The position numbers and the translations under genes were made by a program. From assembly GCA_903877335.1 (NCBI GenBank), contig CAIRDJ010000241.1:1-50096 (forward strand): a stretch of 50,096 nucleotides of DNA, in the 5' to 3' direction. Below, piece after piece: positions 4,308 through 50,096 of this stretch. Source of the stretch: an uncultured Chloroflexota bacterium. Lineage in GTDB: Bacteria; Chloroflexota; Anaerolineae; Aggregatilineales; Phototrophicaceae. The notes below the pieces were generated by a model. The model made no database searches. It was given only the letters and a program-made list of their open reading frames with translations, and was not told the DNA's origin. Numbering within the stretch: position 1 is the first letter of the stretch; every line of letters begins with the position of its first letter.

Positions 4308-5006
4308 ATGTTCAATGAAAACCGCACCGCGTACTATTCCAGTGCGATTGATCTACAACCCATCATGCGCCAAGTGTATATGTGGATGGGCTTGGGGTTA
4401 TTCCTTTCCGCCGTAACCGCCTTCTTGACCGTGAGTACCTCTTTGGTCAGGTTAGCGATCAACCCCGCTGTGCTCATCGTTGCCATCATTGCGGAGTTCG
4501 CCCTGGTGATGGGCATCAGCTTTGGGATGCGTCGCATGTCTGCGAACATGGCAATGGGTTTGTTCATGGTCTACGCCGTCTTGAACGGGTTCACCCTGTC
4601 GGTCGTGCTTTTGGCATTCAGTGGGGGCACGGTTGCGATCGCCTTCCTGTCTACCGCCGGCATGTTCGGGGCAATGTCCATCTTCGCCTTGACGGGCAAG
4701 GTTGACTTAACCCGCATGGGGTCTTTCTTGGGGATGGCCTTGATCGGCTTGCTGATTGCCATGTTCCTCAACATCTTCTTCCGCAGTAGCGCGTTCGACT
4801 TCTTGATTAGCATCGCGGGCATTGTGTTGTTCACCGGCTTGACCGCCTATGACACCCAACGCATTGCGCAAATGGCAAGCGAAATGCGCGTACAACAAGG
4901 GGACGATGCCATCAAGTTCAGCATCTTTGGTGCGCTCCAGTTGTATCTGGACTTCATCAATTTGTTCTTGTTCATCCTGCGCTTGCTGGGCGGCAGACGC
5001 GACTAA
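4308..5006 (+). CDS. Bax inhibitor-1/YccA family membrane protein
   Basis: A 232-residue protein with seven hydrophobic segments and the BI-1 family hallmarks: an N-terminal polar tail with a YMWM first helix, LNGFTLS in the middle, the FALTGK loop, and near the C-terminus LTAYDTQRI, followed by GALQLYLDFINLFLFILRLLG. Bacterial members (YccA, YetJ) are implicated in membrane-protease control or pH-dependent calcium leak; which applies here cannot be read. Start: GGAGGAG at 4292-4298 is spaced nine bases from the ATG at 4308. An ATG at 4290 overlaps that ribosome site and is unlikely to be used. Confidence 0.9.
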   Translation: MFNENRTAYYSSAIDLQPIMRQVYMWMGLGLFLSAVTAFLTVSTSLVRLAINPAVLIVAIIAEFALVMGISFGMRRMSANMAMGLFMVYAVLNGFTLSVVLLAFSGGTVAIAFLSTAGMFGAMSIFALTGKVDLTRMGSFLGMALIGLLIAMFLNIFFRSSAFDFLISIAGIVLFTGLTAYDTQRIAQMASEMRVQQGDDAIKFSIFGALQLYLDFINLFLFILRLLGGRRD

Positions 5007-5011
5007 CCTTG

Positions 5012-5035
5012 AGGGGCGCAACGCGCCCCTTTCTT
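5012..5035 (+). terminator. Rho-independent terminator after the Bax-inhibitor gene
   Basis: An 8-bp GC-rich stem (AGGGGCGC / GCGCCCCT) with a 3-base loop, followed by TTCTT, just behind the stop codon. It separates the gene from lspA, which may therefore have its own promoter or depend on read-through. Confidence 0.75.
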
Positions 5036-5064
5036 CTGCACGTGCCACCTTGAAAGTAGGTCTT

Positions 5065-5580
5065 ATGCATCGGGTAAAAAGCGGGTTCTTGTTAATCACG
5101 GTGGGGGCATTGGTCTTCCTCGTTGACCGCCTCAGCAAGTTGTGGGTGGTCAACCATCTGGATATGTACGAAAGCGTGATTCCCATCCCTGCGCTCTTCC
5201 CGTACTTTCAAATCACCCGCAGTTTTAACACGGGGGCAGCGTTCGGCATTGGGGCGGGAACGCCCTTCGCCAGCGTGGTGTTCTTTGTGGTCTCGGTGGG
5301 AATCATCTTGTTTTTGCTGGCAAGCTACCCACGCCTAGAAAGCGTGAGCGCACGGGTGGCAACGGCTATGATTGTGGGCGGTGCCAGCGGTAACGTGGTG
5401 GACCGCTTGGTATATGGGCATGTGGTGGATTGGGTACACCTCTCCATCCCGTCGGTGATTGCCAACGTGTCCAACCTTGCCGACCATGCGATTGTGCTGG
5501 GGGTGTGCGTGTTGCTGGTTTTGAATTGGCGACAACCCCAACCCGCGCCTCAAGACCCACCCCCCACTCCAACAACTTAA
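5065..5580 (+). CDS. lspA: Lipoprotein signal peptidase (signal peptidase II)
   Basis: A 171-residue inner-membrane aspartyl protease that cleaves the signal peptide of diacylglyceryl-modified prolipoproteins. Four hydrophobic segments are visible. The family motifs are FLVDRLSKLWV in helix 1, FNTGAAFG, GGASGNVVDRLVYGHVVDWV with the first catalytic Asp, and NLADHAI with the second. The start chosen is the ATG at 5065 (MHRVKSG), because the open frame upstream runs back through the Bax-inhibitor gene. The C-terminus ends in a proline- and threonine-rich tail. It stands directly after a terminator hairpin. Confidence 0.93.
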   Translation: MHRVKSGFLLITVGALVFLVDRLSKLWVVNHLDMYESVIPIPALFPYFQITRSFNTGAAFGIGAGTPFASVVFFVVSVGIILFLLASYPRLESVSARVATAMIVGGASGNVVDRLVYGHVVDWVHLSIPSVIANVSNLADHAIVLGVCVLLVLNWRQPQPAPQDPPPTPTT

Positions 5581-46600: not shown

Positions 46601-49600
46601 ATGGCAGAAGGGTTTTTTGACGGTCGCTATCGATATGATTTAATTTACCCCAGGGGACGCTCTGGGGAAACTTTGCGTGGCGTGGATACGCTCCATAACG
46701 ACCGCCCCATTGTCATTAAACGTCCTGCTCCGCATGACGCGCCCCCCATCCGCGCTGGGCAAGAGGTGAGCATCCGCAACGAGCGTGATGCCTTGCGGGC
46801 ATTGGCGGGACATCCCGTTCTAACCGAGTGGGTGGGCGAAGGTCACTTCATGATTGGTGGGGTGTCCTATCAATACATCGTGATGGAACGTGCCACCGGC
46901 GACATCGTGGAAGAGACCGTCTTGCGCCTGGCGGAAACCGGCAAACGCCTGCCCTTGCTAGAGGTGTTGGTGATTGTGGATAACCTGCTGGACTTGCTGC
47001 AAACCGCACACACGCGCGACATCATCTATAACGATGTGGACAGCAAACACCTCTTTTGGAATCGTGACACCTATCAACTCAAGGTGATTGACTGGGGGAA
47101 TGCAGTCTTCTTAGAAGGGGACGAGATCACCCCGCAAGGCATTAGCCGTCAAACCGATGTGTTTCAGGTGGGAGAGTTGCTCTACTTCATCGTGAGCGGC
47201 GGAAAACGTCCCGAAATCCCGCGCGATGCCGGGGAGGGGTTTGAGGTCGCCCTTGACGATCTTAACTCCTACCTTCCCATCGGCTTGCGCCAGGTCATCA
47301 GCAAGGCACTTCACCCCAATCACCGCCTACGCTATCCGCATCTCAAGGCATTGCGTGAAGCCCTCTTGACCATTCGTAAGCCCCTCTTGGACGAACGAGA
47401 CCGCATCCTAGAGCAGATTCGGCAGCAACTACAACGTGAAAATAGCCGTGATGAGCTGCTAGAGTTGCAACAGGCACTGATCCCCGCCCTAGAAGCGGAT
47501 CCTGGCAATCCGCCCAGTCGTGCTTTACAGGAACAACTACAGCAACGCCTGACCGATTTGCAAGTGAGCGCAGACCTCGACGCAGCAATCATCTACTTGA
47601 CCAGTGCCAATTGGCATCGCGCGGCGGACATCCTGGGCGAGTTGCGCCAGCGCGCCACCAGCGATGCACTCCATAACTCCGTGCGTCTGTTTTATGACTG
47701 GTGCATCCTGTTGTTGGAAAATGAAGAGGTTCAAGCCACTTCGGCTCTTCAAGAGGCGATTCAACTCATCCTCGAAAATAAAGCAGAACGCGCCGCACAA
47801 CGGTTGCTCATGCCTCTTCCTCCTAATGATGCAACCAGACGCTTGCACATTTTATTGGCGGAGCGCATCACCTCGTCCTTCACCGAAGTGGTCTTGTTGC
47901 GCCCCAATTTGTTCCGCTTGGATGAGGCACTCACCAAGTTGAGCGGGGTGGATGGCATTCGCTTGGATGGGCATCGGGAACTCATGGATGAAATTTTGGG
48001 CATGCTCGAGGGGATGAACAACCTGACCAACGTGAGCGCAAGCCAGTTGCGTGATCTGTACCACACGGTGGTCGATCATCTCAACGCCATGCGGAACATC
48101 ATGGAAGCGATCAACATCGGTTTAAGCGACCGCCGTCTGCCGCTTTCATCTTTGGATCGCGCTCGCTATGCTGCCATGAACCTGACCGACAACATGCACA
48201 TCATTGGCAAAGAAGCGATCTCGCGCCCCCCAGTTGCTCTTGCCGCGCTAGAAGCCAACCGCCTGATGGACCCCTTCCCCCCCGTTTGGAATGCTTTGTA
48301 CGATATGCTCAGTAACCTGTATAAACACCTACAGAGCTATCAGGTGTATGTGCCGATGGCAGATGCCTCTGATCTTGAGATGTGGCTAGACCGCTCGCTC
48401 CTACAGCTTCAACCCTATTCTGAACGGGTATTTGACGAGTTGTTGGCAAAGATGATAAGCGGATTGGTGCGCTCGCGTCGGCAATGGAAATTGTTTGAGG
48501 TGAGCGTGACGCTGGGGAATCGTACCGCGACATTGAGTGCCCTTGCACAAATGGAAGAAGCGTTAACCACCCTAAGCCCGACCCTTGCAGGGTGGTTGCA
48601 ACACCTGTCTGCCACCATTAGCCGCGCAGAGTATGTCGAACGCCACGCGCTGGCAGGTGGGTTTGGGCGCACAGTGGCGGATGCCTGGAATGCTTTTGAC
48701 CGTGGGCGGTTGGTAGAAGCTGAACGCCTTGCCCTTCAGGCTTCTCAAATTGCCTCCAGCGATGCTCAAAAGCAAAGCGTCCATCGGTTGAAGTCCCTCG
48801 CAGAAACCGCGCGCTCGTGGCAGGAACGCAACGGGGCGTTAAGCGCAGAGCGCACCCAACAAGCGATTAATGCTTTGGCGGAGTTATACCTGCCAGAGGA
48901 GGCGCAAATTCGAGATGGCTTTGAGCGTCAAATGCCCAGTCAAGCCACCTACCTCAAGGCGATGGGCAAAGGATTGGTGGAACCCTATGCACGCCAAAGC
49001 ACTGCTGCTGTGCGCATGTTGTTCTTTGACTTCATCTTGCAGGGCACCTTAGAAGCGCAAAGTAACGAGTTGGATAACAGTCAGTTTTGGCAACAAGCCG
49101 CCCTCCAAACGCTAGACCCCCACAGTCAAACCCACCCCTTGATGGTCGCGCTGCGTGACCTCATCCAACGCAACATCAACCTGAGTGCCATCGCTACTTT
49201 GTTCAACGGGATTAACCACGCCAGCAAGCTGGACGCACTTGGCGACATTCGCCGACAGATCGAAGCCTACCCAGAGGCAAGATTGGTGGATGAGGCAATT
49301 CGTAGCCTGCGCGAGTTGGAAAATGCCCTGCCGGAGTGGGTCAATGGGGAATTTCGCACAGCGGGCTTGCGCCTAGAAAACGCCATCCATGCCGTCCAGC
49401 ACACCGAGGAAGCGGTGGGGATTTCGCTGGGGCAATATAAACAATGGCTCAATCAATTGCAGGCTTCGCTTGCCACCTTACACACCCTGCGCCGTCGCTT
49501 GAACGAGTTGATCGAAAGCAAGCCCAACGAGCCTAACGATGAAGTGGCTAACCTGCACGAGCGCATGCTCAATGAGACGGTACAAATGCTGGGGCGTGCT

Positions 49601-49849
49601 TACGCCAATAATTTTGTGGTGTGGTATGACACCTATCAACGCTTCGTTGCCATCTTTGCCGACGGAAGCCAACGCCGAAGCGCAAAACTCGTCGCCTTCA
49701 GCGAGCAGTTCCGCGCCCTCTTCATTGATCGCCAACCGGCATACCCCCTCTTTCGGCATTGGTTTGACTTGATCGAACGTGCGCCAGAGTTCCCCCCCCT
49801 CCCACCGACGCGCCCCAACCCACCCTCACCGAAGCCGATGAAAATGTGA
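46601..49849 (+). CDS. Serine/threonine-kinase-like protein with a long helical region; frame breaks before the membrane segment
   Basis: A ~1080-residue protein. Residues 1-270 are a protein kinase-like domain: Lys40 in IVIKRP, Glu61 in NERDAL, Asp145 in YNDVDSKHLFW where HRDLKxxN is usual, and Asp164 in IDWGNA in place of DFG. The glycine loop is poor. Catalysis is possible but not assured. About 800 residues of Leu- and Glu-rich helices follow, probably TPR-like or coiled repeats. The present stop comes after a C8 run at 49792-49799. One more C would continue into a frame encoding a membrane helix, so the protein is probably longer. Start: ATG at 46601; an ATG at 46589 is also possible. 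Confidence 0.82.
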   Translation: MAEGFFDGRYRYDLIYPRGRSGETLRGVDTLHNDRPIVIKRPAPHDAPPIRAGQEVSIRNERDALRALAGHPVLTEWVGEGHFMIGGVSYQYIVMERATGDIVEETVLRLAETGKRLPLLEVLVIVDNLLDLLQTAHTRDIIYNDVDSKHLFWNRDTYQLKVIDWGNAVFLEGDEITPQGISRQTDVFQVGELLYFIVSGGKRPEIPRDAGEGFEVALDDLNSYLPIGLRQVISKALHPNHRLRYPHLKALREALLTIRKPLLDERDRILEQIRQQLQRENSRDELLELQQALIPALEADPGNPPSRALQEQLQQRLTDLQVSADLDAAIIYLTSANWHRAADILGELRQRATSDALHNSVRLFYDWCILLLENEEVQATSALQEAIQLILENKAERAAQRLLMPLPPNDATRRLHILLAERITSSFTEVVLLRPNLFRLDEALTKLSGVDGIRLDGHRELMDEILGMLEGMNNLTNVSASQLRDLYHTVVDHLNAMRNIMEAINIGLSDRRLPLSSLDRARYAAMNLTDNMHIIGKEAISRPPVALAALEANRLMDPFPPVWNALYDMLSNLYKHLQSYQVYVPMADASDLEMWLDRSLLQLQPYSERVFDELLAKMISGLVRSRRQWKLFEVSVTLGNRTATLSALAQMEEALTTLSPTLAGWLQHLSATISRAEYVERHALAGGFGRTVADAWNAFDRGRLVEAERLALQASQIASSDAQKQSVHRLKSLAETARSWQERNGALSAERTQQAINALAELYLPEEAQIRDGFERQMPSQATYLKAMGKGLVEPYARQSTAAVRMLFFDFILQGTLEAQSNELDNSQFWQQAALQTLDPHSQTHPLMVALRDLIQRNINLSAIATLFNGINHASKLDALGDIRRQIEAYPEARLVDEAIRSLRELENALPEWVNGEFRTAGLRLENAIHAVQHTEEAVGISLGQYKQWLNQLQASLATLHTLRRRLNELIESKPNEPNDEVANLHERMLNETVQMLGRAYANNFVVWYDTYQRFVAIFADGSQRRSAKLVAFSEQFRALFIDRQPAYPLFRHWFDLIERAPEFPPLPPTRPNPPSPKPMKM

Positions 49850-50096
49850 CAATTTGGGTGATGGATGCTGGACGTGCCACCCCTCCTGCGATGTCGCGCT
49901 ATGGTGACGTGACGGAGGGGCAAGCCTCGTCCACCCAGCGCACGGGCGTATCGCTCCCTGTGATGGTGGTAGGTGGCTTGGTGGTGGTGGCAGTAGGCTT
50001 GCTGTTGTTCTATCTGTTCACACGATTTACCCTTCCCCAAGCGGTTGTGGTTGCCGTCACCATCAGTCCCACCCCCTCCGAAGACACCACCGCCAC
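49801..50096 (+). CDS. Probable continuation of the kinase gene in a shifted frame (partial, runs off the window)
   Basis: Beginning right after the C8 run, the +1-shifted frame stays open for all remaining 296 bases. It encodes PTDAPQPTLTEADENVTIWV, a polar linker, a clear transmembrane helix (about 49951-50030, SLPVMVVGGLVVVAVGLLLFYLF), and then the Pro/Thr/Ser-rich start of an outer part. This is the typical layout of PknB-like kinases: cytoplasmic kinase, one helix, external domain. It has no start codon or ribosome site of its own, which argues that it belongs to the upstream gene. Confidence 0.65.

Follow-up and report, generated by a model that had tools for sequence, protein, structure and literature searches.

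A singleton frame break at a C8 tract, probably a sequencing or assembly error, in a family-wide gene for an atypical kinase-like membrane protein

The C8 tract and its two reading frames

The window, i.e. the whole stretch of DNA analysed here, was a complete contig (C241) of 50,096 b, belonging to a draft assembly of 500 contigs (3.19 Mb, 94 % completeness, 5.8 % contamination). It ended within a gene for a kinase-like protein, of which the assembly contained only one copy. Direct reading of the window placed a run of eight C residues at exactly 49792-49799 on the (+) strand, 297 nt from the contig end and roughly three quarters of the way into the gene. The upstream ORF occupied frame 2 and terminated at a TGA codon (49847-49849) located 16 residues past the tract's two Pro codons, the truncated product ending with ...RAPEFPPLPPTRPNPPSPKPMKM. 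A previous sequence-only reading had counted 17 residues up to this stop; the early stop itself was recovered. Beyond the tract, frame 2 was crowded with stops, while frame 1 displayed its last stop at 49765 and none from 49768 to the contig end.

Codon usage, scored with the long ORFs of the window as training set, favored frame 2 up to ~49750 (+0.21 to +0.27 per codon) and frame 1 after 49840 (+0.15 to +0.25 per codon), and no other frame competed with these two before or after the tract, respectively. Since the score flipped from one frame to the other, the frame switch exceeded what would be expected by chance. Across the tract, frame 2 of the window yielded RHWFDLIERAPEFPP and frame 1 yielded PPPPTDAPQPTLTEADE. 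When EFPP (frame 2) and PPTDAPQPT (frame 1) were joined, the conserved motif EFPAPPTDEPTP was restored, which located the break inside the C tract. The frame break announced at C8 by the sequence-only reading was therefore confirmed by ORF structure and codon usage, and its position in the tract by homology. The same applied to the membrane helix expected in the next frame, which corresponded to a hydrophobic segment of frame 1 (mean Kyte-Doolittle value 2.76). The coordinates of these features are given in Table 1.

Table 1. Features of the kinase-like gene in the window
Feature	Coordinates	Strand	Evidence
Kinase-like gene, 5' part, frame 2	46601..49849	+	ATG 46601 or upstream TTG 46574; TGA at 49847; 44-52 % identity to continuous proteins; weak Pkinase match
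Atypical catalytic loop and DWG (YNDVDSKHLF ... KVIDWGNA)	47027..47104	+	kept in 19 relatives as YNDVDAKHLF (few changes) and DWG
C8 tract, frame-break site, within codons of conserved motif EFPAPPTDEPTP	49792..49799	+	codon score; alignment of relatives
Frame-1 ORF, 3' continuation of the gene, ended by the contig end	49768..50096	+	EFPP + PPTDAPQPT fits EFPAPPTDEPTP; match to the G020 copy of the gene (E = 1.6e-5)
Transmembrane helix VMVVGGLVVVAVGLLLFYL, frame 1	49960..50016	+	KD 2.76; hydrophobic helix at the corresponding place in 35 inspected relatives

The missing C-terminal domain of the gene was absent from the assembly when searched with the sequence of one relative and with a profile. 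As this profile matched in four out of four genomes of relatives used as positive control, that part of the gene should lie on a contig that was left unassembled or unbinned. Among GTDB contigs, no other assembly from this species or genus was found by protein or by DNA pattern, in a search that may omit the window's own record or near ones.

The predicted protein

The gene product would be composed of an atypical kinase-like domain, a long helical region, a Pro-rich motif, a membrane helix, a Thr/Pro linker and an unnamed C-terminal domain. Its N-terminal domain is related to kinases of the PknA/PknB type (PknA match, E = 1e-5), kinase activity being putative. The Pkinase profile (PF00069) gave 23.8 bits for the window copy, below the cut-off of 31.7, and up to 38.1 bits for relatives. 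Throughout the family, the ATP-binding Lys (of VAIK), the alpha-C Glu, the Asp of the catalytic loop and D(W)G were retained. The loop itself read YNDVDAKHLF where the canonical form is HRDxKPxN, its Lys and Asn being replaced family-wide. This atypical kinase-like membrane protein, recognizable by YNDVDAKHLF and DWG, was encountered in the window (46601-49849) and in relatives (L003-L021 and L099-L127).

The kinase-like domain and the transmembrane helix were separated by ~750 aa, a region which looks helical when its sequence is judged by eye. Beyond the transmembrane helix came a linker rich in Thr and Pro, then a conserved domain of ~200 aa at the C-terminus, for which neither a Pfam match nor a convincing PDB sequence match was obtained. 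The "normal PknB-like layout" attributed to this protein held only loosely: the kinase-like domain and the membrane helix were present, but NCBIfam NF033483 (PknB_PASTA) scored 29.1 bits, below its equivalog cut-off of 450, and full-length relatives yielded no PASTA domain.

The gene in related genomes

The comparison covered genomes of the same family, none of them belonging to the same genus. The region was found in 94 out of 98 of these genomes, mostly as open frames of ~1,400-1,600 aa, and a contig end accounted for many of the shorter copies. In most genomes the upstream protein had one continuous counterpart of ~1,405-1,500 aa, mostly 44-52 % identical. Presence in nearly every family member suggests that the kinase-like protein fulfils a core function, in which case a break in the gene would not be tolerated for long.

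The site of the break was inspected in 35 distinct relatives (some genomes were listed twice). All 35 displayed a single frame through the site, spanned by the conserved motif EFPAPPTDEPTP: RHWY...APEFPAPPTDEPTPRL, or a variant of it, was followed in the same frame by a hydrophobic helix situated 47-101 residues beyond Trp-Tyr. Typical codons were TTC CCC GCG CCG CCG ACC GAC, in which C runs were broken up by G bases. None of the 35 carried a homopolymer run of at least seven at the site. Relatives sharing the same early stop had been proposed as a check; it turned out negative, no inspected relative (n = 35) displaying it.

A further interruption, and possibly a second one, was noticed among relatives. 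In L015 (G012:C9), the gene was broken independently, in the Thr/Pro linker past the transmembrane helix (locus position ~4990-5190); this break was not situated at a homopolymer, and the C-terminal domain went on in a different frame. The copy at G091:C64:446-987 was matched as two pieces, which may reflect another break or a small insertion.

Programmed frameshifting had also been put forward from the sequence alone; as a -1 event, ribosomal or transcriptional, it would produce both the soluble and the anchored form. Direct reading of the tract indeed revealed a heptamer, C CCC CCC, in the correct phase for a -1 slip. This explanation was nevertheless the least credible of those considered, as relatives make the long protein in one frame and need no slip: a slippery heptamer together with the frame break was not conserved among them. 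Nor was a stimulatory RNA structure detected downstream of the tract, where 141 out of 200 shuffled sequences folded at least equally well (z = +0.57). A narrow literature search yielded no paper on a C-only bacterial frameshift site of such kind.

C and G tracts elsewhere in the genome

C or G tracts of at least eight bases were sampled by region in the same genome. Forty were coding and in frame and one was shifted, namely the C8 tract described here, while 27 were left unscored and three were too near edges. Judged by ORF structure, 14 of the 27 unscored tracts seemed to lie between genes, at the ends of genes or in frame. A systematic homopolymer error of the assembly was rejected on this basis, since 40 of the 41 scorable coding tracts kept their frame. 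The genome (G000) displayed 162 C/G matches of eight in 3.2 Mb, 22 of which derived from a single C29 run; this density was unusually high compared with relatives, nine out of ten of which had 2-74 such runs in larger genomes. The C29 run opens contig C160 (G000:C160:1-29, L096) and resembles a poly-G artefact of the reads that found its way into the assembly. This run aside, just 13 runs of nine or more were present.

The sequence-only reading had also envisaged phase variation, the tract switching the kinase-like protein between a soluble and an anchored form. In favor of such a functional switch, the C tract has a length at which slippage is known and lies within the gene of a membrane protein, and both forms could be expressed. 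The suggestion was not supported by the comparison, however: relatives were single-frame, none of the 35 carried a tract at the site, the other scorable coding tracts of the genome were in frame, runs of at least nine were scarce, and there was no sign of a contingency-locus system. A conserved phase-variable tract, as expected of contingency loci, is excluded among the relatives seen, which included no genome of the same species or genus, and functional phase variation as a whole appears very unlikely. A C tract newly arisen in this lineage and acting as a reversible switch between the soluble and the membrane-anchored protein would be, if anything, still less probable. No direct literature precedent for phase variation combined with a homopolymer was found in Chloroflexi.

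Origin of the frame break

The deposited letters do contain the frame break, yet it was conserved in none of the relatives inspected and is very unlikely to be programmed; it is best regarded as a probable error or a singleton indel. The favored explanation, considered probable, is a one-base singleton break affecting a gene that occurs family-wide; near the contig end, a sequencing or assembly error is its most likely cause. On this view, nothing else sets the gene apart from the other genes for membrane-anchored kinase-like proteins found throughout the family. Judging from the codons of relatives, the conserved Ala codon after EFP would have become a Pro codon in the lineage of the window, a change that would fuse adjacent Pro codons and so yield a long run of C. 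Inside this tract, the assembled letters depart by a single C from the frame kept in the family, through a singleton event that was most likely an error of the draft.

An error was favored over a real deletion, again as the probable alternative of the two, by three considerations: the position at a contig end, the drop in accuracy at 8-base homopolymers, which affects reads from several short-read platforms (PMC11140927), and the expectation that singleton breaks confirmed by homology are errors, as formulated for BLASTp-validated frameshifts in the GeneTack survey (PMC3711429). The quality of the draft (500 contigs, 5.8 % contamination, artefact-like C29 at the start of C160) was also in line with an error. 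Of the options proposed from the letters, a non-systematic homopolymer error (or a chance indel) was the one favored.

A real one-base slippage deletion comes next. It would be fixed or polymorphic and would truncate the protein before its membrane helix, without any evolved switching. Homopolymers elsewhere in the assembly were mostly in frame, so that room is left for such an event, and a real indel at C8 stays plausible; long C/G tracts are moreover a known kind of slippage site and tracts of eight were unusually dense in this genome. The GeneTack survey also reported that frame breaks near the 3' ends of genes are more often real indels (PMC3711429); the present one falls some three quarters along its gene. 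On the other hand, the coding bias was intact downstream of the tract, which indicated that the gene had not decayed, its single-frame presence in nearly all family members spoke against a tolerated loss, and the tract lay close to a contig end. A genuine deletion was accordingly regarded as possible but rather unlikely.

These observations matter mainly for clean annotation, since an automated pipeline would report a soluble kinase where the family encodes a membrane-anchored protein. A true mix of tract lengths, should there be one, would make the product a phase-variable signalling protein, in a bacterium of environmental type.

Comparison with known systems

Like Ser/Thr kinases of the PknB/Stk1 type (NF033483, PF00069), the protein displayed an N-terminal protein-kinase-like domain and, further on, one transmembrane helix. 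It differed from them by its loop, which reads YNDVD(A/S)KH where HRDxKPxN is usual, by the ~750 aa region of helical appearance ahead of the transmembrane helix, and by a conserved unnamed C-terminal domain instead of PASTA domains.

With poly-C/poly-G contingency loci, such as the type III methyltransferases cited in PMC3711429, the gene shared a coding C tract in which a one-base change shifts the frame; in contrast to these loci, the tract was shared by no relative seen and no second shifted tract was found in the genome. With the singleton frameshifted genes of the GeneTack survey (PMC3711429), it shared a homology-confirmed break restricted to one genome, with unbroken relatives. That survey dealt with complete genomes, whereas the present break is located at the end of a contig in a draft, a setting that makes errors likelier.
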